DNA of 32,131 bases from contig CALFPI010000648.1 of assembly GCA_937919035.1 (NCBI GenBank), positions 1 through 32,131 of the forward strand. Direction: 5' to 3'. The DNA comes from an uncultured Gemmatimonadaceae bacterium (GTDB lineage: Bacteria; Latescibacterota; UBA2968; UBA8231). Positions 16,458 to 32,131 of the stretch are shown here, piece after piece. Each line of letters begins with the position of its first letter. The stretch's first letter is position 1. Position numbers and translations under genes: made by a program. A model generated the notes under the pieces. That model was not told the origin of the DNA. It saw nothing but the letters and a program-made list of their open reading frames with translations, and made no database searches.

Positions 16458-17519
16458 ATGTTGCACACGACTGACGATCTAAGAATCTCCGGCCTTCGGC
16501 CCCTCATCCCACCGGCGATCCTGATGGAAGACCTGCCGGTGACGGAAGAGGCGTCCATCACGGTCAGCACAGGACGCCAGCAGGTGAACGCCGCCCTGGC
16601 GGGTACGGATGACCGCCTGGTGGTTGTTGCCGGTCCATGTTCGATTCACGACACGAAGGCGGCTCACGAGTACGCCAGCCGGTTGCAGAAGGCCGCCGCC
16701 CACCACACCGCCGACCTCATCATGATCATGCGGGTCTATTTCGAGAAGCCGCGCACCACGGTGGGCTGGAAAGGTCTGATCAACGATCCCCGGCTGGACG
16801 GCAGTTTTCAGATCAACGAGGGCCTGCGCCTGGCGCGCGGTCTGCTGCTTGACCTGTGTAACATGGGCCTGCCCGTTGGCAGTGAATTCCTCGACACCAT
16901 CAGTCCACAGTTCATTGCGGATCTGGTTTCCTGGGGGGCGATTGGTGCCCGCACAACGGAAAGCCAGGTGCACCGCGAGTTGGCATCGGGGCTGTCCATG
17001 CCTGTCGGTTTCAAGAACGGCACAGGTGGCAGCACACAACTGGCCATTGATGCGATCAAGGCGGCGCGCGGCGCGCATCATTTCCTGTCAGTGACGAAGC
17101 AGGGCATCTCCGCCATCGTCGCAACGACGGGTAACGACGCCTGCCACATCATTCTGCGTGGCTCCAGTCTCGGGCCGAACTTCGATCAATCATCCGTCGA
17201 CGAGCTTGCCGGCAAACTGGCGGGAGATGGATTGCCGCACCGGTTGATGATCGACTGCAGTCACGGCAACAGTGAAAAGGATCACAACCGGCAGCCCGCC
17301 GTCGCTGCCGCCGTGGCGGCACAGCTTGCGGCTGGCTCCGACAATATTTTCGGTGTCATGCTGGAGAGCCACCTCGTCGAGGGGCGACAGGATCTCGTCG
17401 CTGGCAAGGCTGGCACCTACGGACAGAGCATCACCGATGCCTGCATCAACTGGGAATCGACGCAGCTTGTGCTCGAACAGTTGGCCGCCGCCGTACGGGC
17501 CCGGCGCGCGCAACGGTAG
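16458..17519 (+). CDS. aroG: 3-deoxy-7-phosphoheptulonate (DAHP) synthase, class I
   Basis: First enzyme of the shikimate pathway, condensing phosphoenolpyruvate with erythrose 4-phosphate in the cytoplasm. At 353 aa it has the length of the AroF/G/H type. Conserved stretches are VVAGPCSIHD, MRVYFEKPRT, GWKGLINDP, GARTTESQ, GFKNGT and IDCSHGNSEKDH, which include the metal-binding Cys, His and Glu. ATG 16458 is 11 bases after AAAGGA. Which amino acid feeds back on it cannot be read from the sequence. It is adjacent to an MFS gene on the same strand; no other aro genes are in the window. Confidence 0.95.
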   Translation: MLHTTDDLRISGLRPLIPPAILMEDLPVTEEASITVSTGRQQVNAALAGTDDRLVVVAGPCSIHDTKAAHEYASRLQKAAAHHTADLIMIMRVYFEKPRTTVGWKGLINDPRLDGSFQINEGLRLARGLLLDLCNMGLPVGSEFLDTISPQFIADLVSWGAIGARTTESQVHRELASGLSMPVGFKNGTGGSTQLAIDAIKAARGAHHFLSVTKQGISAIVATTGNDACHIILRGSSLGPNFDQSSVDELAGKLAGDGLPHRLMIDCSHGNSEKDHNRQPAVAAAVAAQLAAGSDNIFGVMLESHLVEGRQDLVAGKAGTYGQSITDACINWESTQLVLEQLAAAVRARRAQR

Positions 17520-17527
17520 GCCGGACG

Positions 17528-18721
17528 ATTCTGACAATCCGTCCGAAGCTCCAGGTCGGCCTGCTGTTTCTATGTGAGGCGCTGACACGCTCATCGGCGA
17601 TCATCGTGCTCACGACGATGGCCCTGATCGGGCGCCGACTGGCACCTGACGCGGCACTGTCAACGTTGCCCCTGGCCCTCGTCCCTGTGGCGACGACGTT
17701 GATGACGATTCCCGCGGCGCAGTTCATGCGTCGCCGGGGACGGCGCCCCGGATTTGCTCTGGCGGCCCTGATCGGCATTGTCGGCGCCACGGTCGCTGCC
17801 AGTGCGGTCTGGTTGGAAAATTTCTGGCTGCTGTGCGGCGGCGGTCTGCTGATTGGCAGCGTCAATGGTTTTGCCACCTACTATCGGTTCGCCGCCGGCG
17901 AGGTAGCGCCGCCGGAGTTCCGCACACGTGCCATCTCGCTGGTCATGGCCGGCGGCGTCGTCGCTGCATTCCTCGGATCGACGCTGGCAACGCAGACAAA
18001 GGATCTGATTGCCGGCCACCCCTTCGTCGGCTCCTTTGCCTGCATCACCGTGTTGCAGGCGCTGATCCTGCTGATCCTGTCGCGCGCACAGTTGCCGGCG
18101 CCCACCCCAAAAACCGACGCTGACGATGGTCGTCCATTGGGCACCATCGCCCAAAGTCCCACGTTCGTCCTGGCCGTCCTGGGTGCCGTTGCCAGTTGGG
18201 GCTTGATGTCACTGCTGATGAACGCGACGCCCCTATCTATGGAGCGCCATCACCATGCCTTCGGCGATACGGCCAACGTGATCCAGTGGCACGTGCTGGG
18301 CATGTATGTGCCGTCCTTTTTCACTGGCAGCTTGATCCGACGTTTTGGCGAACGGCCGATGCTGCTGCTCGGCGTCCTCTGTATCGCTGCTTCGGCCTGG
18401 CTCAACACCGGTGGCACCGAACTGATGACCTACATGACGGGGCTCACCGTGCTTGGTATCGGCTGGAACTTTCTGTTCATCTCGTGCACGTCCCTGATCA
18501 CAGCCACGTACCGAACAGAAGGGGAGAAGGCACGGGTGCAGTCGGCCAACGACTTCCTGATCTTCGCGACGATGATCGTGTCGACTTTCTCCGCCGGCCC
18601 CCTCGAGGAGCGCATCGGCTGGTATGCGCTCAATCAGGCGGCCCTGGGGGTAACGGCTGTCATTGGGGTCGCGCTGCTGCTATTGATGTGGCGTGAGCGC
18701 CGCACGGGACACAGAGCCTGA
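17528..18721 (+). CDS. MFS transporter (start codon unclear)
   Basis: Polytopic permease with twelve expected helices. MRRRGRRPGF is the loop 2-3 signature, and FATYYRFAAGE and MAGGVVAAFLGS follow. The first canonical start in frame (GTG 17606) falls inside the first membrane helix. In frame upstream is KLQVGLLFLCEALTRSS, which completes that helix, but no ATG, GTG or TTG exists before the frame enters aroG. I therefore give ATT 17528 as a possible start, seven bases after TAGG at the aroG stop; CTG 17531 or a sequencing/frameshift problem are alternatives. Substrate unknown. Confidence 0.78.
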   Translation: MLTIRPKLQVGLLFLCEALTRSSAIIVLTTMALIGRRLAPDAALSTLPLALVPVATTLMTIPAAQFMRRRGRRPGFALAALIGIVGATVAASAVWLENFWLLCGGGLLIGSVNGFATYYRFAAGEVAPPEFRTRAISLVMAGGVVAAFLGSTLATQTKDLIAGHPFVGSFACITVLQALILLILSRAQLPAPTPKTDADDGRPLGTIAQSPTFVLAVLGAVASWGLMSLLMNATPLSMERHHHAFGDTANVIQWHVLGMYVPSFFTGSLIRRFGERPMLLLGVLCIAASAWLNTGGTELMTYMTGLTVLGIGWNFLFISCTSLITATYRTEGEKARVQSANDFLIFATMIVSTFSAGPLEERIGWYALNQAALGVTAVIGVALLLLMWRERRTGHRA

Positions 18722-18818: not shown

Positions 18819-20204
18819 TCACTCGGTGTAGTAGTACCCGTAGAGGATCATCATTTCTTCCTTACGCGTGAAGCCGAAGTACAGATCGCTGTCCTCGGGG
18901 TTGTCGTACGTGGCGCGAACGCGCAACCCTTGCCCCTGTCTCATGGACAGGGGCGGATCGAAACGCAGTGGCGCCGGGTGCTCCCAGTCGACACTCCGGT
19001 ATATCGTCTCGCCGTTGCGGTCACCGCCGACGATCTCGGCGCTGAAGTCGATCATACGCTGGTGTGTATGCGCCACCAGCTGCACGATCTGGCGATCCTC
19101 CAGGAACTCAAACTCTTTCTCCAGAGTCGTCACCTGTCCAGCTGGCAACAGGATGTCAAAGTTGCTCAAGGCGAAGATTCTGGCAACGTGCTGCACTTCA
19201 TCAGCTTTCAACAGATGCAGATTGATGTAGGCTTCGCCGTCGATGGCGTCATCGGAATAGTTGGCGTAGTGCGCGTTCAGGTCGATCCCGGAGCCGGCGG
19301 GCAGGCGCATGGCGACACCCTCCGGTAAGGAAAAGTCAAGCCGGCGCGACTGGCTGATGACGATCGGTTTGGCATACTGCATCTGACGCCAGTCGAACAA
19401 GTCGTCGCCATTGGCGTCCTGGTAGTTGTCATTTTCATCGCGCAGGTCGCGAACCTCGAATGGATTCGGCACAACATCCGCTGGCGTGTAGTCGGGGTAT
19501 GTATACATGATGAAGTGATGGCTGCCGGGCCGCAGGGAGATGTCGAAGCGATTGACGTACATGTCCTCGTCATTGTTCAGAGGCATGTAGGAAAACACCT
19601 CGCGCTCGTGGTTGGCCACGACCGGGAAAGTATCCAGATGCAGTTGCAGGCCTTCGACCGGGATCGGCAGGGGGGCGAAGGGGCTGGGCTCGTAGCGCTG
19701 TGTATCGTCGAGCACTGCCGGGTCGATGATGACACCCGTCCTGGGTGCACCGGCGGCAATCCATCGGCGGATATACTCAAGCTCGCCGGTGGTCAGGGGC
19801 GGCCGACCCAGGGGCATGATTTCACCGTACTCCGGGTGATCACTGAAGAGGTGGTCCGAAGCGGGGGCGTTGATTTTCTCCCAGAGGTAGCTTTGCTCGA
19901 GCCCCCCAGGACCGATGTTGCTGACGCGGACGAGGCCGGCGTCGGCTGCGTGACTGTTGCTGGGAGCTGCGCCGACGAGTTGGTCGTAGGCGACATCCGC
20001 TGTCAGCACCAGGTTGGACTGCCTGGCAAAGGCAGTACCCGCCGTATGACAAGCGACGCAGTTGTCGTCGAAGATCTCGTGTTGAATGACTTCGAAGGAG
20101 GACAGCGTCTCCGGCCCGGATGGGTCCGATGAGTCGGAGCAGCTGGCCAACAATCCTGCCATCGCTAACAGACAGAGGCTGAAAAAAGACTTGGTGTTTT
20201 TCAT
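18819..20204 (-). CDS. Lipoprotein with cytochrome c and PHM-like copper monooxygenase domains
   Basis: A 461-aa envelope lipoprotein. ATG 20204 gives a signal peptide with lipobox LASC22 and has GGAG eight bases upstream; the track start is too long. C49-V-A-C-H53 binds heme c, and EIMPLGRPPL supplies a possible axial Met. The rest resembles the copper type II ascorbate-dependent monooxygenases (peptidylglycine alpha-hydroxylating type): H229-H230 (SHHFIMY), H312 (NAHYAN), H379-x-H381 (AHTHQ) and a Met in EEMMILYGYYY match all the copper ligands of that family. The heme domain could deliver electrons in place of ascorbate. Substrate unknown. Confidence 0.85.
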   Translation of the reverse strand: MKNTKSFFSLCLLAMAGLLASCSDSSDPSGPETLSSFEVIQHEIFDDNCVACHTAGTAFARQSNLVLTADVAYDQLVGAAPSNSHAADAGLVRVSNIGPGGLEQSYLWEKINAPASDHLFSDHPEYGEIMPLGRPPLTTGELEYIRRWIAAGAPRTGVIIDPAVLDDTQRYEPSPFAPLPIPVEGLQLHLDTFPVVANHEREVFSYMPLNNDEDMYVNRFDISLRPGSHHFIMYTYPDYTPADVVPNPFEVRDLRDENDNYQDANGDDLFDWRQMQYAKPIVISQSRRLDFSLPEGVAMRLPAGSGIDLNAHYANYSDDAIDGEAYINLHLLKADEVQHVARIFALSNFDILLPAGQVTTLEKEFEFLEDRQIVQLVAHTHQRMIDFSAEIVGGDRNGETIYRSVDWEHPAPLRFDPPLSMRQGQGLRVRATYDNPEDSDLYFGFTRKEEMMILYGYYYTE

Positions 20205-20315
20205 GGGAGAACTCCGGGATCCTGCGTCGCACCGAACGTCGAACACATCGCCGACAATCCGCAATAAGTAGCTAGCTCAGGGGCAGAAGTCAATTCGAGC
20301 GCAGCCAACGGGGCA

Positions 20316-22376
20316 TCACTGCGGCGGCGTTTGCCCCGCATCGACGCGCAAACGACGGGCCAAATTCAGCGCCGCCCGGGACAGTTCAGGCCTGCCCGTG
20401 CGCTGGTAAAGAATCCCCAGGTGGGCATGGGCGGTGGCCAATGTTGGCTCCAGGTCGACGGCTTGCTTGAGGGATCCTTCGGCGGCGGCCCATTCGCCTC
20501 GCATCATGCGTAGTGTGCCCAGATTGAGATGAGCGGCGGCGAAGGTCGGTTGCAGATGCACGGCACGTTGCAGATGCTCCAGCTCCTCGTCGACGCGACC
20601 CAGCTGGTGACAGACATTGGCCAGGTTGTACCGCGCCTGGGCCAGATCCCGGATCTGCAGGGCGCTGTGCATGTTCTGGTAGGCTGCCTGTGGATCGCCT
20701 GCCTGCAACTGCAGGATGCCCTGGCACAACCGGGCCTCGTGCTGCATCCGCGGGCGTGGATCCACTGCCAGCACCGCGGCGACTACCGCTGACGCCTCGG
20801 TATAGCGGCCGGACCGACCCAGCAGACGCGCCAGATTCACGCCGGCTCGAGAGTGATCGGGGGCCAGCCGCAAAGACTCGCGATAGTTGCCTTCGGCTTC
20901 TTCGAGGCGTCCCTGACGCTCGTGCGTGGCGCCGAGACTATTGTGGATATCAGCGTCTCCGGGATGCGCCTCAAGCGCCAGAAGGAAGGCGCGCTCCGCC
21001 TCGCGCAGTCGGTTCGTTTGCAGGAGGATTTCGCCCTGGAGCCAGGCGGGGCGCAGATGGTCGGCATGAGCTGGATTGACGCCGGTGTGGACGATGACCG
21101 TCGCTGCAACCAACCAGGCACCGTGGTGCAGCAGCCCGCGTCGATCCCCCGCCCGCAACAGCGTGGCAAGGCGATAGAGCGCATCTGCGGCGAACAGCAG
21201 CAGGAATGGTACCGCCGGCAGTCGGTAGCGGGCACAGACGGTGAACAACATGCCCGACACCAGGAAGGCAAGAACGCCGCCGTAGGCCAGAGACCAGGTT
21301 CGCCAACGATGGCGGTTGACGATCATACCCAGAAGTGCCAGGGGCGCCAGCAGGCCGAAAGTCGCTGGCAGGATCCGGCCAAGCAGGCTGTGCTGGTCGA
21401 ACCAGGCCAGATCCACACTCACCGGGACTTCGAAGGCGTTCCAGAACAACCGAACTTTCTGGTACGTCAGGAGCGCCGCCCGCAGTGGCTGCCCGGTCCA
21501 GAAGCCGACGACTTCCGTCAGGTAAATACGCCCGCGTTGTGCTGGCGTGGCCTGCCATCCATCCCGGAAGCCGACCGATTCGAGGCGCTGCCAGTCGATG
21601 CCCTGACGGGCATAGGGCGTGCCGTCAGCTGCAGGATTATTGCCCATGTGGAGCGACCAGGCCCCCTCAAAGGGCAGTGGGGTACCCTGGGTGGCGATGT
21701 TGTGCATAACGAAGGGTGCCATGCCGATACCGAGGCCGGTGCACAGCAAAAGCAGGGCGCGTCGCGGCGATCGCCCTTCCGCCTGGCTGCGCGTCACCGA
21801 AACCCAGGCTACCACCGGAAGCAGCAGCAGGGCGTTGGCTCGCGTCGCGCCCAGCAACGCCAGCAGCAGCCCTGCACCTGCCAGGCACCGGTCGGACATC
21901 GCCGAAGGCCGGCTCAGCCAGGCGAACAGCGCCGCAACAAGGAAAATGACGAGGGTTGTTGCCAATGGCTGGGCGCCGAACACCAGGAAAGGCTCATACA
22001 GGCTGGCCAGCACACCACACACGATCGCCGCCGGCGGCGCCAGCAGGTGACGGGCGCCACGATAGAGCAACACACAGGTCAGCGAGCCGAGGAGGGCCTG
22101 CAGCAGAAGCAGGGCGGTTACTCCAAGGCCACACCATTCGACACCTGCCCACAGGATCGGGTAGAGGATTCCGTGAACGTAGGTCTCGGCGGTAGCCTCA
22201 CTCCAGGTTCCGTCCAGCAGGCCTCGAGCCAGATGCTGGTATTCTTCGGCATCCAGTACGAGCGTGTCGGCGTACGGGGAAGCGGCTGCCTCCGCCAGCA
22301 GCACCAGCCGCAACGCCAACGCCAGAAGAAAAATGCCGGCAGCAATGCCGCGAGGGGTCCAGTGGGCCAGCCGCAT
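20316..22376 (-). CDS. GT-C glycosyltransferase-like membrane protein with C-terminal TPR repeats
   Basis: A 686-aa protein. After the first helix (IAAGIFLLALALRLVLLAE) comes a periplasmic loop with LVLDAEEYQHLARGL, the acidic loop typical of PMT/ArnT-like GT-C enzymes, then about ten further hydrophobic helices to roughly residue 430. From about 450 to the end there are six or more TPRs (DADIHNSLGATHERQG, AAAHLNLGTLRMMRG, ATAHAHLGILYQRTG). ATG 22376 is chosen because it begins right before the first helix and avoids overlap with the divergent lipoprotein gene; its AAGGA touches the ATG, so the ribosome site is poor. Second GT-C/TPR fusion in the window. Confidence 0.85.
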   Translation of the reverse strand: MRLAHWTPRGIAAGIFLLALALRLVLLAEAAASPYADTLVLDAEEYQHLARGLLDGTWSEATAETYVHGILYPILWAGVEWCGLGVTALLLLQALLGSLTCVLLYRGARHLLAPPAAIVCGVLASLYEPFLVFGAQPLATTLVIFLVAALFAWLSRPSAMSDRCLAGAGLLLALLGATRANALLLLPVVAWVSVTRSQAEGRSPRRALLLLCTGLGIGMAPFVMHNIATQGTPLPFEGAWSLHMGNNPAADGTPYARQGIDWQRLESVGFRDGWQATPAQRGRIYLTEVVGFWTGQPLRAALLTYQKVRLFWNAFEVPVSVDLAWFDQHSLLGRILPATFGLLAPLALLGMIVNRHRWRTWSLAYGGVLAFLVSGMLFTVCARYRLPAVPFLLLFAADALYRLATLLRAGDRRGLLHHGAWLVAATVIVHTGVNPAHADHLRPAWLQGEILLQTNRLREAERAFLLALEAHPGDADIHNSLGATHERQGRLEEAEGNYRESLRLAPDHSRAGVNLARLLGRSGRYTEASAVVAAVLAVDPRPRMQHEARLCQGILQLQAGDPQAAYQNMHSALQIRDLAQARYNLANVCHQLGRVDEELEHLQRAVHLQPTFAAAHLNLGTLRMMRGEWAAAEGSLKQAVDLEPTLATAHAHLGILYQRTGRPELSRAALNLARRLRVDAGQTPPQ

Positions 22377-22480
22377 TCCTTGACAGTCCGAAAGGCAGGC
22401 GTAACCTACCTTCCTTTTCCGGCCACATGCAGGCCTCCGGGGTGAACAATCAACTTTCGACGAAGACGGGAATAGACAGT

Positions 22481-24169
22481 ATGACCGCAATGTTAGCAAA
22501 AGCCGGCGCATTCATCCTGCTTGCAGCCACCCTCATGTTGCAGGCCTGCGCCCAGGAACCCGTGCCACAGGATGCGCCGCCGGTTGCCGGAGAGGATGAG
22601 GCTGTTGTCCTTGCCCGTGTCGATGACACCATGATCACGCTGAAGCAGTTCCGGGAGTTCTATGCGGACATACCCGACTATCTGCAGAGTGGTAACGCTG
22701 GCATTGAACAGGTGCGCGACCATTTGCAGACCCTGATCGACATGGAGCTGTTGCAGATCGAGGCGCTGGACCAGGGCATTGCCCAGCAACCCGAATTTCT
22801 CAGCAAAACGAAGCGGCAGCGTATGGACCGGTTGGTCGGCTTGTATATCATCGACCAGATCAAGGTGAATCTGCTGCCGTCACAGGTGCGCGATGAATGG
22901 GCGGCAAAGGGCCTGTCACGCACGATTCGCGTCGGTCAGATTCTGACGAGCAGTCTCGATAGTGCGCAAGCCGCTCTGAAGGACATCGCCTCGGGCGCCA
23001 CTTTCGGTGAAGCCGCCCGCATGTGGTCGACGCACAAGGAGTCGGCTCAACAGGGAGGAGACCAGGGCCGCTACATGAACCGTCTCGATGTGCAGCCAAG
23101 CCTGGGAGATCGACTGTTCGCACTCACCGAGGGGGAGATATCCGAGCCGATCGACCTGAAGGGTGGCTTCGGTGTCTTCACGGTATTGGCCCAGTTTGAC
23201 GCGGATCTCAACCAGGAACGTTTCCTCGCACTCTATCAGAAGATGTACATGGAGCGTAGCGTCGCCGAACGCCGTGCCCTCGTGGACAGCCTCAAGAGCG
23301 ATCTGCAACTCAGCCTCGACAGAGATGGGCTGAAGCGGCTGTTGGAGATTACCCGTCGCGGGGCCTGGGACGACCCGGCGCTTGCTGAATTGACGATCTA
23401 CCGATACCGCGGCGGGCAGATCACCGGGCTCGATGTAGTCATGTCCGTCGACCCCGTCGACCTCGGCTCTCTGCGTCAGTTGACAGCTGAGTCCATGGCT
23501 CAGCGCATGAGTCGCACGCTGGTGCCGGACGCAATTCTCATGGCCGGGGCACTGGAGGCCGGCTACGCGCAACGTGAAGACATTGCCGACTGGTTGCTGC
23601 AGCGCCGCAAGGAAGAGCTCATCGTCCAGTTGCGGGTGAAGATTCTCGATGAACGGGTCGAGATCAGCGAAGAGGAGATCCGTGCCGAGTATGACGCAAA
23701 GCCGGAGCGTTACACGCGCCCGGAACACATCACCATCGAGGAGGTGCTGGTGGCGACGGAGGCCGAAGCCCAGGCCGTGCGTGCGCGGATCGAAGCGGGG
23801 GAGAAGATCGCAGACCTGGCACGGAAAATGTCCCTGCGGTCCCTCGAGCACCGCGACGCGAATGGGCGAATCTCGTTGACCCTGGCTGACGGCCGCTACC
23901 TGGGTCGGCTGGCGGCCTCCGCCTACAAGAGCCAGCCTGGCGAACTGGTAGGGCCGCTGCCGGTATTCGAAGGTTTCTCCGTCTACCGTTTGCTGGATCG
24001 CACGAAGGAGTCTGCCCCCTACGAGGAAGCCCGCCGCCGAGCCCAAGCAACCGTCAACTGGATCAAGAAGCAGATCGTCTTCGAACAGTTTTTGCAAGAT
24101 CTGCGGGTCAAATACCAGGATCGAATCCAGATCTTTGACGAGGGAATCGCGCAGGCCGTTACCGGGTGA
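22481..24169 (+). CDS. Double-parvulin peptidyl-prolyl isomerase lipoprotein (SurA/PpiC-like)
   Basis: A 562-aa lipoprotein foldase. ATG 22481 gives a signal peptide ending in lipobox LQAC23. A SurA/PrsA-like N-terminal helical region (FREFYADIPDYL) follows, then a first parvulin domain (IRVGQILTSS, GGDQGRYMNRLD, LFALTEGEISEPID), a central helical part and a second parvulin domain (HITIEEVLVATEAEAQ, KSQPGELVGPLPVFEG). It would assist folding of secreted or outer-membrane proteins in the periplasm. The last codon overlaps the GTG of the next gene (GTGA), so the two are coupled. A promoter should lie in the 104-bp divergent gap upstream. Confidence 0.9.
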   Translation: MTAMLAKAGAFILLAATLMLQACAQEPVPQDAPPVAGEDEAVVLARVDDTMITLKQFREFYADIPDYLQSGNAGIEQVRDHLQTLIDMELLQIEALDQGIAQQPEFLSKTKRQRMDRLVGLYIIDQIKVNLLPSQVRDEWAAKGLSRTIRVGQILTSSLDSAQAALKDIASGATFGEAARMWSTHKESAQQGGDQGRYMNRLDVQPSLGDRLFALTEGEISEPIDLKGGFGVFTVLAQFDADLNQERFLALYQKMYMERSVAERRALVDSLKSDLQLSLDRDGLKRLLEITRRGAWDDPALAELTIYRYRGGQITGLDVVMSVDPVDLGSLRQLTAESMAQRMSRTLVPDAILMAGALEAGYAQREDIADWLLQRRKEELIVQLRVKILDERVEISEEEIRAEYDAKPERYTRPEHITIEEVLVATEAEAQAVRARIEAGEKIADLARKMSLRSLEHRDANGRISLTLADGRYLGRLAASAYKSQPGELVGPLPVFEGFSVYRLLDRTKESAPYEEARRRAQATVNWIKKQIVFEQFLQDLRVKYQDRIQIFDEGIAQAVTG

Positions 24170-26049
24170 AGGGCCGGGCCCGCCCCGCAATGACTGACGC
24201 GGTACAGGCCCGACTCTTCCGTTGGGGGGTTCCGGTTGTTGTGCTCGCCGCCCTGGGGCTGCGCTGGCCGACGCCATTGCCGACATGGTCTCACTTCGAT
24301 GAAATCGCCTTTGTCGTTCTGCCTCTCGGGTTCTGGGGGGGCGATCTCAATCCGCACTACTTCAACTACCCGACGTTCCACTTCTATCTGATCTCGCTCT
24401 GCGATTACCTGGCCTGGAACCTGGCCTGGATGACGGGTTGGGGCGCAGGCGCCGCCCGCACCGCTGCGCAGTTCGTCGCCTACCAGTATCTGGTGGATGG
24501 CAGCGCCCTCCTCGCCGTCGCCCGGGTCGCAGGCGTTCTGCTGTCAACGGCAACGGTCCTGGTTCTTGCCCTGCTGGGCCGACGTCTTTTCGGGCCACTT
24601 GCGGGCGGGCTGGCGGCCGTCGCCCTGGCTGGCATGCCCTTGGCGACACGTTTCGCCCCCCTGGCCAATACGGACACGCCGGCGCTGTTCTGGACGGTCC
24701 TGGCCTTGCTGTGGGCCACTCGTGCCAGGCAAACCGGTGTGACACGGGATGTATTGTTCTGCGGTCTCTTCGTCGGACTGGCGGCGGCCAGCAAGTACCC
24801 CGCCGTGCTGATCGCGCTACCGGTGGCGGTGGCTCTGTCAGACCGATGGTCCGTGCGCACCGTGCCACGGCTTTGCCTGTGTGCGGCATCGGCGTTGTTT
24901 GCTTTCAGTGTCGCATCACCCTACGTCTGGCTCGATTTCGTCGCCTTCTGGCATCACTTCAGCGACATGGCTGGCACACACCTGCTTACACCGACACACA
25001 CATCCGCCGTGGCCCGATTGTTCGAGGCGACTCGATTCGCCTGTGGGATCGGCGGTTTGCTGGCGGTTGCGGCGGGGCTGGTCCAGGCCGTTCGTTGCCG
25101 AACGTGGCAGGACCTGGTTGTCCTGTCGACCGGGTTGGTGACGGTTGCGCTGCTGTTGGCAGCCGGATCCTCCTTCCTGCGTTATGCCCTGCCCCTGGCA
25201 CCCGTCCTGTGTCTGTTGATGGCCCGCGGACTGTTGCTCGTTCGCCGGTCAGAGCTGTTGATCCTGCTGACGGGTGTCGTCATGCTGGAGCCGCTATACG
25301 TGAGCCTGGCCAGTCGACAGTTGCTCGGTGGCGCCGATACCCGTAGCGAGGCGCGCGCGTGGATCCAGCAGCGGGCGCCGCTGGGGGCCTGGCTGGTGGA
25401 ACCCGAATCTGCCTGTGGCCGGATCGACCTGCTGCGGCCTGCGGACGTGTTCACTCGCCAGGCCCATTTCCTGCGCAGCTATGGCATCGACGGTCTGCAC
25501 GCCGCCTACCAGTATCTGGCAACGAGGCCCGACTTACCCGCTCTGTTCCCCCCGGGTCTGCCGGCTGTCGCCACGCAGGTTCTCCCAGGAACCGGTGGCT
25601 CGCAGGCATGGATGCCGGCGGTGCGCCTGTACTACGAGCATCCCGTTTGTGGGCCCGCCGAGGAGGCCCCCATGGGTGATGGCGACGGGCAGCTGTTTGA
25701 TCCATTCTCCACTGACGCCTCGCCGCCGGCGACGGATTTTGATTCACAGGACTGGTACTTCCTGCCGACCCGAGGGCTGCACCATGTGCGGGCCACAGGT
25801 CCGAAGCTCACGGCGCAGAGACAGGCCCAGGTGATGTTGCCTTCGGTGCGCTCTGCGGAGTTCTTCGAGGCCCTTTCCTGGATCACGGCTGCGGTGCTTG
25901 CAGCACGACAGGACGATGCCGAGACAGCCATCGCGTGGTACGAACGCGTTCTGGCACTCTGGCCCCGGCCCGAAGCTGTGTTTGGGAGCCGGACCGTCGC
26001 CGGGATCCACGGACAGATTGCGCGCCTGCAACGCGAATCGAGCAGGTAG
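24166..26049 (+). CDS. ArnT/PMT-like GT-C family membrane glycosyltransferase
   Basis: A 627-aa polytopic protein of the glycosyltransferase 39-like group that uses lipid-linked sugars. The first periplasmic loop holds SHFDEIAF, with the acidic pair expected of the active site, and HYFNYPTFHFYL. About ten hydrophobic helices follow, then a soluble C-terminal region from about residue 390. GTG 24166 overlaps the stop of the isomerase gene; ATG 24190 is an alternative. Coupling to a periplasmic foldase suggests glycosylation of exported proteins or a cell-surface polymer, by inference. No TPRs are visible, unlike the two other GT-C proteins here. Confidence 0.85.
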   Translation: MKGRARPAMTDAVQARLFRWGVPVVVLAALGLRWPTPLPTWSHFDEIAFVVLPLGFWGGDLNPHYFNYPTFHFYLISLCDYLAWNLAWMTGWGAGAARTAAQFVAYQYLVDGSALLAVARVAGVLLSTATVLVLALLGRRLFGPLAGGLAAVALAGMPLATRFAPLANTDTPALFWTVLALLWATRARQTGVTRDVLFCGLFVGLAAASKYPAVLIALPVAVALSDRWSVRTVPRLCLCAASALFAFSVASPYVWLDFVAFWHHFSDMAGTHLLTPTHTSAVARLFEATRFACGIGGLLAVAAGLVQAVRCRTWQDLVVLSTGLVTVALLLAAGSSFLRYALPLAPVLCLLMARGLLLVRRSELLILLTGVVMLEPLYVSLASRQLLGGADTRSEARAWIQQRAPLGAWLVEPESACGRIDLLRPADVFTRQAHFLRSYGIDGLHAAYQYLATRPDLPALFPPGLPAVATQVLPGTGGSQAWMPAVRLYYEHPVCGPAEEAPMGDGDGQLFDPFSTDASPPATDFDSQDWYFLPTRGLHHVRATGPKLTAQRQAQVMLPSVRSAEFFEALSWITAAVLAARQDDAETAIAWYERVLALWPRPEAVFGSRTVAGIHGQIARLQRESSR

Positions 26050-26468: not shown

Positions 26469-27395
26469 ATGCGATTTTTGCGCACGTCATTGGCCGCCCT
26501 GCTGATCGTTGGCAGTTCGTCCACGCTGTTCGCACACGAACCACCTGGAGAGGTGTTCTTCGCCTTCCAGTTCCCGGCCAATGCTGTACCGGCAATGGAC
26601 GGCGACCTCAGCGACTGGAACATGGTTCCTGCCGACATCTTCGAGGTGTCGATGGAGAACGGCTGGATCCAGGAAACGGTCCGCGGCGATGCGGGCAATG
26701 ACCTGTCTGACTTCAACGCCCGGCAGATCTGGGCCTGGAACGAAGAAACCAATCGCGTCTATGCCATGGCCTCGGTCGTTGACCAGTACCTGCACAACAG
26801 CCGTGAAGATCCGACGTTGTACAACTGGGATGATGACTGGGAGTTTGTCCTGGATGCCGACCACAGTGGTGGCGACATGTACAACAACGACTGGACCGCG
26901 CTGCCCCAGGAAGAGAACCGGGAGTTGTTCTTCACCACCGGTCGTCTGTGGGAGATCCATGTGCCGCCGATCGATGGCTACTGGGCCTTCACGTTGATTG
27001 AAGGCACCGACTGGCTGACAACAGGCCAGGAGTTGCCCTTTCCTGAGTACGTCGAAATCGGTTGGGCCCGCACGGGTGCCACCGGCGGCCCTGGAACCTA
27101 CGCTTACGAGATCAAGTTGACCCCGTGGGAGCGCTGGGACTTTGACGGCCCCGGGCAGAGCACGATCGTCGACCTTGAAGTGGGCAGCATCATCCACGTT
27201 GGTTCGCTGACCAAGGATTACGACGAGAGTGAAAGCTACGAAGGTTCCTACGACTTCCCGCCGGTACACAACGTTTGGCGGAACGCCAACCTGATGGCCG
27301 ATATGGAGTTGTTGCCTGTGGACGGCGCTGCCTTCCCGACAGCAGTGGCGCAGGACAGTTGGGGTAGGATCAAGACGCACTTCCTGACCAAGTAG
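26469..27395 (+). CDS. Secreted CBM9-like carbohydrate-binding domain protein
   Basis: A 308-aa exported protein. ATG 26469 gives a signal peptide (RTSLAALLIVGSSSTLFA, cut before HEPP) and has AAGGA nine bases upstream; the longer track start has neither. The mature part looks like one family-9-type sugar-binding beta sandwich: MDGDLSDW near the start, IWAWNEETNRVYAMASV, WEFVLDADHSGGDMY and YAYEIKLTPWERWD. No catalytic domain or surface anchor is visible. Its long structured leader and the strong hairpin just downstream suggest a well-expressed gene. It precedes the FlgD-Ig protein series on the same strand, so the products probably meet at the cell surface. Confidence 0.83.
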   Translation: MRFLRTSLAALLIVGSSSTLFAHEPPGEVFFAFQFPANAVPAMDGDLSDWNMVPADIFEVSMENGWIQETVRGDAGNDLSDFNARQIWAWNEETNRVYAMASVVDQYLHNSREDPTLYNWDDDWEFVLDADHSGGDMYNNDWTALPQEENRELFFTTGRLWEIHVPPIDGYWAFTLIEGTDWLTTGQELPFPEYVEIGWARTGATGGPGTYAYEIKLTPWERWDFDGPGQSTIVDLEVGSIIHVGSLTKDYDESESYEGSYDFPPVHNVWRNANLMADMELLPVDGAAFPTAVAQDSWGRIKTHFLTK

Positions 27396-27417
27396 TTTCC
27401 GTTCGTTCCTGTTGCAC

Positions 27418-27452
27418 GGAAAAGGGGGGGATCAACGAATCCCCCCCTTTTC
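27418..27452 (+). terminator. Strong G/C-run hairpin after the CBM9-like gene
   Basis: GGAAAAGGGGGG (27418-27429) pairs with CCCCCCTTTTCC (27441-27452), 12 perfect pairs with a short loop that can extend by GU or bulged pairing. No clear T-run follows the right arm. It ends 37 bp before the next start, so it may attenuate transcription into the large-protein genes or protect the 3' end of the CBM9-like message. Confidence 0.7.
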
Positions 27453-27489
27453 CATTCCTATCTGCCACCGACCACAAGGGGATCCGAAC

Positions 27490-30054
27490 ATGCCCGGTCT
27501 CGCAGGCGTCTGTCACATTCGGGCGGCGTTGCAGGGTGTCGTCCCACTCCTCCTGATGGCCTTGGTGCAGGCTGCGGCGCAGCAGGGCCACGTGGTGCGT
27601 GGCGATCAGGTCCTGGTCAATCAGGCGAGTCATTGGCAGGCTTGGGCTGGCGCGGCGAGCCTCGTGCGGATTTCCCAGCAGGATGGTGTTACCCCTCTGT
27701 TGGTGCGTAAGGGGATCAACGCTGCCCTCGATGCCCCGCAGTTTTCTCTGACCGGCGATGGCGGGCCGGTCGTTGGCTCGAACCCGGCGACGCGGATCAA
27801 TGTCATCGACGGCGATCCGAGCACCAGCTGGGGGCCGGATCCGCGCAGCCCTTTAAGTGACTGGTGGCTGGATCTGCACCTTGGCCGATTGGTGGTGGTG
27901 CAGAAGATCGTCATCCGTTTTGCCGATGAGGGTGAAGGCGACCCCTTTCTGCAATTCAAAGTACTCGGCTGGCGCCAGCCGCCGCCCCGTTCCACCTCAA
28001 AGTATTTCCTCGACGGTACGAAGATCCCACGTTTTTGGGAGATCGGACGCACGAGTCAACCGAGCAAGACGCAGCGGATTTTCGAATTCGTTGTGCGCCC
28101 CACCGAAGGTGCCAACGACGATTTTGTTGGTGACCCCCTTGAGCGCATCCAGATCGTGGCCTTGAGTTCGGATTCCACACGAGCCCAGGAACTCACCAAC
28201 GACGCATACGATGCTTTGCCCGCCTCCCAACAGGGCGCCATTGAGTACTACCGCCAGGAGCGGTCGGGGCGCGAAACACGGATCACCGAGGCGGAGTACA
28301 ACGTGATCGATGTGGCGCGTCGTGGACCCATCCGCTACTACCGCCGCGAGACGCCACGCATCGCTGAGATCGAAGTTTTTGCCGTCGGCGACAATGTCAA
28401 CCTGGGTCTGGTGGATCGCGGGGGCTCAGCGACGATCGAGATCGGTGGCGGCAGCGTGAAGGATATCGGCGCAACGGTGGCCGACGGCGACTACTCCGTC
28501 GGGCACAATGGCTCGGCTTTCGATGAAGAGACCTACGAGTTTCTGGAAGATCTGGGCTCGTTGTTCTGGGTCGACACGATGCATTTTCTCACCGATGGCG
28601 CCTCGGCTCTTGATGTGTTCTCGGTTGACATATCGGATGGCACACGGGCGCCGGACGGCAGCGTCCAGTATACCCGGGTCAACGACAGCAGCGGCAGCGG
28701 CAATGTCGGCATCAGTTCGGCGACCGGGATCCGCTACCGTGAAATTCGTACCGCGCCGAGCAAGGTGCGCTACGTGCGCTCCACCTTCGCCAACCCACTG
28801 AGTTTGCTCAGTTACGTTGGTTTCACCGAGGTCATGTTCTATGGCGCCGGGTATGTCCCTGAAGTGTCTCTCACGTCTGACCTGGTGTTGCTGGCAACGA
28901 GGAAGAATCTGATCTCCATCGACTGGGACGCCGACACGCCGGCCGGTACCCGGATCCAGTTGCAGACCCGGACGGGCAACGAACTGGTGGAAGAGAAGAT
29001 CTACCATGACGACAAGGGCAATGTTGTCACTGAATCAAGGTATAATCGTCTGCCTGGCTCCAAACAGGGCGAGATCAGCAGCAGTTTCGAAGCCGGACCC
29101 GACTGGAGCACCTGGAGTGTTCCATACAATACTTCAGGGTCCGAGATCACCTCCCCAAGCCCGCGGCAGTACCTGCAAATTCGGACGACGCTGTTCACCG
29201 ACCGGGCCGATACGGCTGCCACGTTGCGTGCGATCGTGCTGAATATGTCTGACCCGGTGGCGGCGCAGTTGCAGGGCGAGATCTGGCCCATCCGCGTGGG
29301 TCAGGTGGGTGTAGCAGAGGAATTTTCGCTGTTTGTGCGACCCACTTTCACCGAGTCCGGGCAGGGCTTCAATGAACTGAAGGTAGAAGCCACGGCAGGT
29401 GCGCGTATGGAGTTTCTGGGACTGCGGCTTGGAACCGATGCGCAGTTCGAGTCGGATGCAGCCACCCGGTTGGCAGCGGCGGAACTGGTTTCACTGTCCG
29501 CCGCCGAGGATACGATACATGTGCGACTGCCGCAGAGTGTAGGCCAGGGCACCGATCTGCTGGAGGTGCAGTTCCGTGCCACAATTCTCGGCAACAGCGC
29601 CTCATTTCGCGGCTTCGTTCGCGACACCTCCAAGTCCGAGTTCTGGCAACGCGTAGATGCTGGTGATGCCACGACTCTGGCCGCCAGCCAGACGGTCACT
29701 GTCCTGGCCCTCGAGGGCAGCGAGGTGCTCGGAGATTTTCGTTTGGCACAGTCGGTGCTCACCCCCAACGGCGATGGTATCAACGACGAGTTACGGGTCG
29801 AGTTTTCGGTGGCACGAGTCGCCGGACAACGCGCCGTGACACTGGTGATCTACGACCTCAGCGGACGTGCCGTGGCTCGGGTCGAGGAACTGCGGCCGGA
29901 TTCTCGTGGTCAGTATGCGTTGGTGTGGGACGGTAAGGATGCCGCCGGCAACCTGGTCTCCCCGGGCATCTACATTGCGCGAGTCGATGTTGCTGTCGAC
30001 TCCGATCGAGCCGTTAAGACGTCCGCCCAACGCGCGATCTATGTCGCCTTCTGA
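27490..30054 (+). CDS. Secreted multi-domain discoidin-like protein with C-terminal FlgD-Ig domain (paralog 1)
   Basis: An 854-aa exported protein; ATG 27490 has AAGGGGA seven bases upstream and is followed by a hydrophobic signal segment. A first discoidin (F5/8 C)-like region lies near residues 95-200 (INVIDGDPSTSWG, WWLDLHLGRLVVVQKIVIRF). A second similar region lies about 305-460 (TVADGDYSVG, DLGSLFWVDTMHFL). A beta domain then leads to the C-terminal FlgD-like Ig domain from about residue 757 (VLTPNGDGIND, LVWDGKDAAGNLVSPGIYIAR). Between domains a short motif recurs (YDALPASQQGAIEYYRQE, YNVIDVARRGPIRYYRRE, YNRLPGSKQGEI). Such C-terminal domains are linked to secretion and surface attachment in FCB bacteria. 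Exact role unknown. Confidence 0.85.
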   Translation: MPGLAGVCHIRAALQGVVPLLLMALVQAAAQQGHVVRGDQVLVNQASHWQAWAGAASLVRISQQDGVTPLLVRKGINAALDAPQFSLTGDGGPVVGSNPATRINVIDGDPSTSWGPDPRSPLSDWWLDLHLGRLVVVQKIVIRFADEGEGDPFLQFKVLGWRQPPPRSTSKYFLDGTKIPRFWEIGRTSQPSKTQRIFEFVVRPTEGANDDFVGDPLERIQIVALSSDSTRAQELTNDAYDALPASQQGAIEYYRQERSGRETRITEAEYNVIDVARRGPIRYYRRETPRIAEIEVFAVGDNVNLGLVDRGGSATIEIGGGSVKDIGATVADGDYSVGHNGSAFDEETYEFLEDLGSLFWVDTMHFLTDGASALDVFSVDISDGTRAPDGSVQYTRVNDSSGSGNVGISSATGIRYREIRTAPSKVRYVRSTFANPLSLLSYVGFTEVMFYGAGYVPEVSLTSDLVLLATRKNLISIDWDADTPAGTRIQLQTRTGNELVEEKIYHDDKGNVVTESRYNRLPGSKQGEISSSFEAGPDWSTWSVPYNTSGSEITSPSPRQYLQIRTTLFTDRADTAATLRAIVLNMSDPVAAQLQGEIWPIRVGQVGVAEEFSLFVRPTFTESGQGFNELKVEATAGARMEFLGLRLGTDAQFESDAATRLAAAELVSLSAAEDTIHVRLPQSVGQGTDLLEVQFRATILGNSASFRGFVRDTSKSEFWQRVDAGDATTLAASQTVTVLALEGSEVLGDFRLAQSVLTPNGDGINDELRVEFSVARVAGQRAVTLVIYDLSGRAVARVEELRPDSRGQYALVWDGKDAAGNLVSPGIYIARVDVAVDSDRAVKTSAQRAIYVAF

Positions 30055-31942
30055 TGCTGACCCGCGACGTGTATGCCTGCTTGGACTGTTGCTTGTGTTG
30101 CTGACAGCCGAACTGAGCCCGGCCTCGGCCCTGGTCATTTACCGCTTTGGCGGCCAGGACCTGCCGCCTCCGCCGGAGGCAGCCAGTCCCGGGGTTCAGT
30201 ACATCCAGCGATCCTGGCGTGAACTCGAGACAGATGCCAACGCACAGTTTCTCGACCTCGCCGTGGCGCCCAACAGCATCAGTCCCCTGCGCCGGGACCC
30301 CGAAGTGAACATCGCGCCCACGGCGGAGTTACGGGGCGGCATGTTTCTGCGACCTCACGTGAACGCCCAGGTGTGGGACGGTGATACCAGCACCGTCTGG
30401 CAGTCGGGAGCCTACCTCTGCGCTGAGTACTCGGCCTATAGCCTGACGTGTACCGACGACTTCGGCACGACGGGCACGGCCAACATCGACCTGGGCGGCC
30501 TCTACCAGATCGACCGGATCCGCCTGTTCTCGGGCCTGCGCGATCCGAGCAAGGTGGCGCAATCGGTCCGGGTTTATCTGGCACCCAGAATGCCTTTTGT
30601 CACTACCCAGTTCCAACCACCCCCTTTTTCCCCGCACCAAGTCGAAATTCGTGACAATCGGCAGCAGGTCCTCGATATCGCGATCCCACCACATGAGGAT
30701 GCCGGCTTCGTACAGCTCACTCTGGGCGAGCACAACGAGGACTGGGAAGTGCAGGATATCCACATCTTTGCCAAGGGTTTTGTCCGTCGCGCGACCTTCG
30801 TTACCGAAATTCTTGACCTGGAACGACCCATGGCCTGGGGCCAGGTCCGGTGGGGAGGCAGCACGGACGAACGGGCCAGGGTGTTGATCCAGTCACGCAG
30901 TGGCGCCGATGAGGATCCGCTACGCTACTGGCGCGACACCGGACGCGGGGGAGACCGCCAGGAAGTCAGTGCCGCCGAGTACGATGAATTGAAGCTGGGC
31001 GAGCGAGTTGGCACCAGCTACGATCAGGACCATTGGGACTTCTGGTCCACGTATGCTTCTGGGGACAGTCTCGGAACTCAGATCGTGTCTCGCAGTCCGC
31101 GACAATTTCTACAATTGCGCGTCGACTTCTTACCGCAGGAGAATGACGGTGGCGAGATCCGGTTCCTGGAATTCCGGGCCTCCGAGCCCGTCGCTTCCTC
31201 GTTGGTAGGCGAGGTGTGGCCCCTGGTGGTGCGCGTGGGTCAGTCCACGGGTTTCACCTACGTGTTGCGCCCCACTCTGAACGAAGAGGATGCGGGATTC
31301 GACCGCCTTGAGATTCGCAGCCAGTCGCTCCTGGGAGCGGTGACACAGGTCCGCATCGGTGATCTGGTCGTCCCCTTTGAGCTGGAACTGGCGGAAGCTC
31401 ATCGGCTGATTCTGCGTTTGCCGCGGTTGGCATCGAAGGACTCCGGCGCTCTGGTGGAGGTTGACTTCAACGCCCAGGTACTGCGCTACGGAAGCCGCTT
31501 TGAAGGACGTGTATCCGACAGTTCCCGCCCCCTTGAAGTGCCCCAGAGTATCAACGATGGCGACGCGACCGGCGAGTATGAGGGCAACACGGTGGCGGTG
31601 ACCACAGCCCAAGCCGATGAGGGCGAGCTGCTGCGTCTGCGGCTATTGCCAAAAGTGTTGACGCCGAACGGCGACGGTATCAATGAGGCAGTAGAGGTTG
31701 CCTACGAAGTCTTCGAGATCACCGGGTCGGCCCGCGTTCGGGTCGAAATCTGGGATCTGTCGGGTCGTCGCATGCGCTTGATCCACGAGGGGGAGGACGG
31801 CATCGGTACCTACTCTCGTCTGTGGGACGGTCGTGATCAGACTGGCCACCTGTCGCCGCCCGGAGTGTATCTAGTGACAGTCTCTCTCGATGCTGACGCC
31901 GACCACTTTGTCCGTTCAAGGATTCTCCATGTTGTCTACTGA
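30041..31942 (+). CDS. Secreted discoidin-like protein with C-terminal FlgD-Ig domain (paralog 2)
   Basis: A 633-aa exported protein. ATG 30041 lies inside the end of paralog 1 (14-nt overlap) and precedes the signal peptide CLLGLLLVLLTAELSPASA; the track start upstream is a shadow. The mature N-terminus is LVIYRFGGQDLPPPPEA. A discoidin-like region follows (VWDGDTSTVW, ANIDLGGLYQIDRIRLFSG), then a beta domain clearly homologous to paralog 1 (SRSPRQFLQLRVDF against SPSPRQYLQIRTTLF; VGEVWPLVV against QGEIWPIRV), and VLTPNGDGINE with the FlgD-like Ig domain from about residue 539. No strong ribosome site, consistent with translational coupling. Confidence 0.85.
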   Translation: MSPSDADPRRVCLLGLLLVLLTAELSPASALVIYRFGGQDLPPPPEAASPGVQYIQRSWRELETDANAQFLDLAVAPNSISPLRRDPEVNIAPTAELRGGMFLRPHVNAQVWDGDTSTVWQSGAYLCAEYSAYSLTCTDDFGTTGTANIDLGGLYQIDRIRLFSGLRDPSKVAQSVRVYLAPRMPFVTTQFQPPPFSPHQVEIRDNRQQVLDIAIPPHEDAGFVQLTLGEHNEDWEVQDIHIFAKGFVRRATFVTEILDLERPMAWGQVRWGGSTDERARVLIQSRSGADEDPLRYWRDTGRGGDRQEVSAAEYDELKLGERVGTSYDQDHWDFWSTYASGDSLGTQIVSRSPRQFLQLRVDFLPQENDGGEIRFLEFRASEPVASSLVGEVWPLVVRVGQSTGFTYVLRPTLNEEDAGFDRLEIRSQSLLGAVTQVRIGDLVVPFELELAEAHRLILRLPRLASKDSGALVEVDFNAQVLRYGSRFEGRVSDSSRPLEVPQSINDGDATGEYEGNTVAVTTAQADEGELLRLRLLPKVLTPNGDGINEAVEVAYEVFEITGSARVRVEIWDLSGRRMRLIHEGEDGIGTYSRLWDGRDQTGHLSPPGVYLVTVSLDADADHFVRSRILHVVY

Positions 31943-32131
31943 ATCAAGGTCTAGCGGGTCAAGAGCCAACAGAATCACACCTGGCCGTTGGTTGAGTCTG
32001 GCTGTGGCCATCACACTCATACTCGCTGTGGGCCAGGTCGATGCTCTTGTTATCTACCGCTTGGGTGGCGCTGAACTGCCCCCCCCGCCCGAGGCAGACA
32101 GTGCGGGGGTAGAGTTCGTGCAGGTCGCCTG
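31929..32131 (+). CDS. Third paralog of the secreted FlgD-Ig series, N-terminal part only
   Basis: Not in the ORF track because it runs off the window. ATG 31929 opens 67 codons: a basic segment, the hydrophobic stretch WLSLAVAITLILAVG, then ALVIYRLGGAELPPPPEA. The mature N-terminus is identical to paralog 2 at 19 of 29 aligned positions, so it is a close relative. It overlaps the end of paralog 2 by 14 nt, as paralog 2 overlaps paralog 1. A run of eight C (32079-32086) encodes part of the proline stretch. The rest of the domain structure is unseen. Confidence 0.85.
   Translation, partial: MLSTESRSSGSRANRITPGRWLSLAVAITLILAVGQVDALVIYRLGGAELPPPPEADSAGVEFVQVA

Follow-up and report, generated by a model that had tools for sequence, protein, structure and literature searches.

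At the downstream end of contig CALFPI010000648.1, from an uncultured Gemmatimonadaceae bacterium that GTDB places in the Latescibacterota, a secreted CBM9-like protein is followed by two complete and one truncated exported protein (P1, P2 and P3), the complete two ending in a FlgD immunoglobulin-like (FlgD-Ig) domain, which raises the question of what such a head-to-tail series is part of and how far it extends. The window analysed here is the entire contig (C648; 32,131 nucleotides), one of 782 in a 5.9-Mb draft genome. The original prediction had proposed a duplicating locus of cell-surface or sheath proteins, possibly for glycan binding or adhesion. The series appears to belong to an operon, apparently undescribed, that continues into genes for two ~930-amino-acid (aa) putative outer-membrane proteins (OMP1 and OMP2) and is present in about 40-50 copies in the complete genome of a relative. 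We give about an even chance to the explanation that the FlgD-Ig proteins are type-B-like cargo of a type IX secretion system (T9SS), each set served by a member of a new family of cargo-specific envelope partners analogous to SprF in the SprB/SprF pair, an explanation drawn from analogy and genome context.

The operon and its conservation

Coordinates and signal peptides, the latter read directly in P1, P2 and P3, agree with the predicted series of related exported proteins on one strand behind the CBM9-like gene. P1 and P2 share their C-terminal ~400 residues up to the FlgD-Ig/CHU_C end (30.6% identity over 421 aa, E about 2e-43; 156 bits compared with 25 bits for the best of 200 shuffles), bearing out the common central and FlgD-Ig region that had been noticed, and the mature N-termini of P2 and P3 are alike (70% over 27 aa), as had also been proposed. 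The Pfam FlgD_ig model is matched above its cut-off in P1 and at its cut-off in P2, CHU_C is matched in P1 (30.9; cut-off, 27), and the FlgD Ig-like domain (PDB 3osv) matches the last ~80 residues (E 5e-11). This Ig-like domain is the only feature in common with the flagellar hook cap FlgD, the proteins here being exported and multidomain. The structure predicted for P2 could be used in its central and C-terminal beta domains.

P3 could not be extended directly because the window edge is the contig end (position 32131), and the last 25 bases of C648 are absent from the other contigs of the same assembly that were examined. The predicted continuation past the edge was found in a sister genome (isolate casp40-mb.301), in which contig L107 carries a stretch 96% identical to the window and a complete P3 (L107:3464-5437; 657 aa; 56% identity to P2) that possesses the central domain and a TPNGDGIND/FlgD-Ig end, followed by a fourth relative. 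Another contig of the draft genome (C274) starts inside this fourth gene (97% identical to the sister copy over 264 residues) and proceeds to OMP1 and OMP2, which are 73% and 63% identical to the same-position pair in other genomes, and then to an amidohydrolase-like gene. The draft assembly lacks the sequence between a point within P3 and a point within the fourth gene, and the presumed join of C648 to C274 rests on synteny, from which the full operon would read PpiC, PMT, CBM9-like, P1, P2, P3, the fourth (740-aa) FlgD-Ig protein (CHU_C, 40.2), OMP1 and OMP2.

The window shares the order CBM9-like, P1, P2 with seven other genomes (46-72% identity), with identities of 58-61% for P1 and 46-56% for the P2-type gene (CBM9-like in Table 1). 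The 740-aa gene and the OMPs follow in relatives wherever the contig is long enough, and several relatives possess an extra array of three P2-type genes ~6-7 kb off, past foldase, transferase and PMT/TPR genes. The named relatives are Latescibacterota, some of them deposited as Gemmatimonadetes, and several are presumably sponge symbionts, going by the names of their sample series. Between the CBM9-like gene and P1, the window has an intergenic hairpin (-30.1 kcal/mol, z -4.95) that occurs at the same position in six relatives with a stem of 12-17 bp (17 consensus pairs, two of them changed on both sides). The hairpin is a candidate terminator/attenuator or transcript-stabiliser, and it might allow stronger expression of the CBM9-like gene than of the other operon genes.

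Repetition of the operon and the partner family

In the complete chromosome OX638377.1 (G018), at least 144 distinct FlgD-Ig genes were recovered with the P2 query, and 48 OMPs with the OMP query. A same-strand FlgD-Ig gene lies within 500 bp of 34 of the 48 OMPs, compared with a mean of 2.07 (maximum, 8) in 500 random-shift trials, and in 33 pairs it is immediately upstream; amongst 55 complete OMP genes, 39 directly follow a FlgD-Ig gene. Homologues occur mainly in tandem, frequently next to CBM9-like genes, rather than scattered, and some FlgD-Ig genes are solitary. OMPs and their upstream FlgD-Ig partners diverge together (Mantel r 0.61, permutation maximum 0.20; 0.56 for the last 250 residues only), and therefore whole operons duplicate. 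The proposed duplication is thus supported with a different unit, the whole block with its ~930-aa partner and foldase and not the FlgD-Ig gene alone, and the surface location and glycan binding proposed along with it are putative. Companion genes, counted across 40 G018 loci, include the PpiC foldase family at 26 loci (profile hidden Markov model; also found in the window), a CBM9-like gene at 25-27, TPR or ASPIC-UnbV/FG-GAP proteins at 23, and a ~260-aa protein without Pfam match and DUF6785/6784 membrane proteins at 12 each. Together the FlgD-Ig, OMP and CBM9-like genes occupy at least 428 kb of the 6.27-Mb genome (6.8%), and the largest component, the OMP, has no family model. Repetition on this scale suggests a heavy outlay of these uncultured bacteria on a specialised cell surface, and the operon is a concrete candidate for how they contact their surroundings. 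Two G018 loci (L129 and L136) hold clusters of three OMPs from a divergent subfamily (~26% identity to other OMPs) with few FlgD-Ig genes.

Across the FlgD-Ig family, 200 of 209 genes encode a hydrophobic N-terminus by a simple pattern, and FlgD_ig and CHU_C are present in 57 of 60 paralogues. The proteins are acidic (isoelectric point about 4.7) and most are without an enzyme domain. Single G018 paralogues bear a MauG/cytochrome peroxidase or a metalloprotease domain, and thus the same tail is also attached to enzymes. The family shares domain matches with the F5/8 type C (discoidin) family in 24 of the 60 paralogues, as the CBM9-like family does with CBM9_1 (PF06452) in 7 of 33 members (best, 2.1e-10), unlike the window's own proteins, of which P1 has an F5/8 match below the Pfam cut-off and the CBM9-like protein has no Pfam match; the original prediction of a CBM9-like neighbour is corrected to that extent. 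The P2 query gave at least 20 matches in each of the 24 same-family relatives searched, and paralogue numbers differ strongly between genomes. The OMP family is present in 39 of 64 genomes of the phylum (25/25 in the window's family, 0/22 in the rest of the class and 14/17 in the remaining phylum), a patchy distribution to which loss or transfer could have led. No relatives of either family were found amongst the viral contigs searched.

The members of the OMP family have signal peptides. Among 50 OMPs, no curated Pfam or NCBIfam family was matched, including any NCBIfam model of the PorP/SprF kind, and a profile search found no PDB match up to E 10. Identity as a TonB receptor/SusC was rejected, with no plug or TonB-receptor domain in the 50 OMPs (Pfam at E 0.1, and NCBIfam), as was kinship with SprA (hhalign probability 2.2 over 23 columns). 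The OMP alignment has 22 amphipathic 10-residue beta windows compared with 14.8 (2/200 shuffles), many falling within the C-terminal 300 residues; the SprA control gave 61 compared with 40. An EF-hand-like loop, DLNNNDWIDRFE, occurs in 42 of the 50 OMPs compared with 0.65 expected on shuffling, and sits in a strongly conserved D/N-rich stretch of the 50-OMP alignment (~residues 540-640 of L119:12184-14979), where it is a possible calcium site. P2 residues ~395-530 were also considered as a cohesin-like partner of this loop; with one weak fold match (2w1n) and no Pfam cohesin or dockerin match, the idea was set aside and kept as a lead.

Proposed type IX secretion and competing explanations

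SprA (TIGR04189) and PorV (PF19572) are above cut-off in the draft genome and in the complete genomes G018 and G024 (3/3), and PorU (NF033707; 630 bits) is likewise above cut-off in both complete genomes, where it adjoins PorV, with a partial match in the draft genome. PorP/SprF (TIGR03519) was never above cut-off in these three genomes (one sub-threshold match, 50.7 compared with 90.55 bits). Type B cargo of Flavobacterium depends on a cognate PorP/SprF protein, the gene for which commonly comes next downstream (PMC12618676), and at the surface such cargo binds its PorP/SprF-type partner (PMC9143113). The operon resembles such Bacteroidota systems (SprB-SprF, PG1035-PorP) in the TPNGDG-type CHU_C end of an exported protein, a partner gene commonly directly downstream and several cognate pairs per genome (PMC12618676, PMC9143113), the partner's outer-membrane site being presumed here. 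It differs in that the partner is ~930 aa long, compared with 292 positions in TIGR03519, and has no detected similarity to PorP/SprF or SprA; in having 2-4 cargo genes for each partner and dedicated genes for PpiC and CBM9-like proteins, and in its phylum; and in number, with about 48 partners per genome compared with 12 type B substrates in F. johnsoniae. More of the 60 paralogues match TIGR04131 (type B; 34) than TIGR04183 (type A; 16).

As the cargo-then-partner gene order is that of Flavobacterium and the partner is apparently unrelated and larger, type-B-like cargo with a new partner family would be the best explanation. P1, P2, P3 and the fourth protein would be exported by Sec and then by the cell's own T9SS (SprA/PorU/PorV), with the FlgD-Ig/CHU_C C-terminal domain as a type-B-like signal, and their discoidin-like and other beta domains would face the exterior, where they would bind glycans or glycoconjugates. 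The ~930-aa protein would be the cognate outer-membrane partner that takes cargo from SprA and holds or places it on the surface, like SprF/PorP, while PpiC may act as a dedicated periplasmic foldase and the CBM9-like protein as an exported sugar-binding accessory. Duplication of the operon as a block would have given the about 40-50 cognate sets of G018.

Several observations weigh against this explanation. CHU_C is below cut-off in P2 (24.2), and the window proteins and the paralogues with printed scores are under the TIGR04131 and TIGR04183 cut-offs (TIGR04131: best in the window, 16 bits compared with a cut-off of 35; best E amongst the 60 paralogues, 1e-7). FlgD-Ig domains were also found in control bacteria without a T9SS. 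The search for the secretion system covered SprA, PorU, PorV and PorP/SprF; a complete T9SS, with its GldK/L/M/N motor, is presumed. SprA is above cut-off in 61 of 64 Latescibacterota genomes, with or without the OMP family; since SprA is nearly universal and the OMPs patchy (39/64), the presence of a T9SS does not predict the system, and their co-occurrence in the phylum is uninformative on T9SS dependence. The excess of amphipathic strands in the OMP alignment is weak, the single-sequence test is near background (OMP ratio 1.07, compared with 2.06 for SprA) and a structure model from four sequences had a predicted local distance difference test (pLDDT) score of 23.6; because of the latter two results, we infer rather than observe that the ~930-aa protein is in the outer membrane.

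A bolder version, which we hold tentatively and would not yet favour, makes the ~930-aa proteins a new class of cargo-specific T9SS outer-membrane shuttle or anchor unrelated to PorP/SprF. In this version the Latescibacterota would have amplified a cargo-shuttle-foldase operon until each genome held about fifty cognate surface complexes, a repertoire that would match SusCD in scale by convergence, outside the Bacteroidota. The presence of SprA throughout the Latescibacterota, joined to tens of type-B-like cargo sets, would extend the range of organisms known for the T9SS and would be a natural setting in which to test whether cargo-specific partners arose repeatedly. According to a 2025 paper the T9SS is exclusive to Bacteroidota (PMC12618676), and the other phyla of the Fibrobacteres-Chlorobi-Bacteroidetes (FCB) group that a 2024 paper names as possibly having one do not include Latescibacterota (PMC11285876). 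The consulted portion of a 2015 analysis of Latescibacteria mentions porins and Plug-domain receptors and does not describe this system (PMC4454575). No paper linking Latescibacterota with a T9SS was found in a literature search that lacked most subscription papers.

Nutrient uptake of the SusC/SusD kind is unlikely. Under that model the ~930-aa protein would transport a specific substrate across the outer membrane, and the FlgD-Ig/discoidin and CBM9-like proteins would capture this ligand at the surface. Like polysaccharide-utilisation loci, the system is spread over many paralogous loci in which a large envelope protein is coupled with surface proteins of carbohydrate-binding type, and many diverged copies, each with its own binding proteins, fit substrate-specific uptake. 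Also in favour are the sugar-binding-type domains (F5/8 and CBM9_1) and the DUF6785/6784 and ASPIC-UnbV/FG-GAP proteins amongst the neighbours. Against this stand the missing plug and TonB-receptor domains, the lack of any recurring glycoside hydrolase or polysaccharide lyase family amongst the first 25 neighbour-gene families, and binders that are FlgD-Ig/discoidin proteins and not SusD; to our knowledge, SusD-type binding proteins have no FlgD-Ig/CHU_C ends. The defining features of PorP/SprF and of SusCD were both looked for and not found, and the system is therefore assigned to neither.

Slightly more doubtful is a sheath, S-layer or adhesin coat, with the FlgD-Ig proteins polymerising or tiling after export without a T9SS and the FlgD-Ig domain being only a structural beta-sandwich. 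Tandem, acidic, exported multi-beta-domain proteins mostly without enzyme domains would suit a coat; 2 of the 50 OMPs weakly match an S-layer beta-barrel domain, and a whole-chain fold search with P2 returned mainly multi-Ig chains, one S-layer protein among them, but these fold matches say little because their template modelling (TM) score is about 0.15. A uniform coat would not be expected to come as dozens of diverged cognate sets in one genome, and the co-divergence with a large partner indicates specific pairing. A lineage-specific expansion by neutral tandem duplication, with no common machine and adjacency reflecting duplication history only, would fit the variable paralogue numbers, the solitary FlgD-Ig genes and the paralogues with enzyme domains (MauG), but is very improbable given the same four-component make-up across diverged loci, the one syntenic block in the window and seven other genomes, and the conserved intergenic hairpin.

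Genes and elements of the window

Among the operon genes of the window (Table 1), the PMT_2 gene start overlaps the end of the foldase gene, the P2 start codon lies within the end of P1 and the P3 start codon within the end of P2. The foldase gene has a syntenic counterpart in G018, as does the PMT_2 gene, there fused to TPRs (L102:1504-3645). Mature P2 starts with LVIYRFGGQDLPPPPEA, and its N-terminal half is discoidin-like by eye.

Table 1. Features of the window, with the basis for each assignment.
Feature	Coordinates	Strand	Basis
Cytochrome c/Cu-monooxygenase-like lipoprotein	18819-20264	-	syntenic in relatives
PMT/TPR membrane protein	20316-22511	-	syntenic in relatives
PpiC-type peptidyl-prolyl isomerase, SurA/PrsA-like foldase	22427-24169	+	Pfam Rotamase_2 E 8e-18, Rotamase 8e-18
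PMT_2-type membrane glycosyltransferase	24166-26049	+	PF13231 E 2e-12
CBM9-like protein, exported, 308 aa	26469-27395	+	signal peptide (by eye); 67-72% identical syntenic orthologues
Hairpin, CBM9-like/P1 intergenic	27418-27453	unassigned	perfect 15-bp stem
P1, 854 aa: signal peptide, discoidin (F5/8)-like, central beta domains, FlgD-Ig/CHU_C end	27490-30054	+	
P2, 633 aa: signal peptide, central beta domains, FlgD-Ig end	30041-31942	+	
P3, first 67 codons, cut at contig end	31929-32131	+	

Upstream of the foldase, the lipoprotein and PMT/TPR genes on the opposite strand have counterparts in relatives (L101:8719-10116 and 16540-18687), and the conserved block thus extends beyond the operon.

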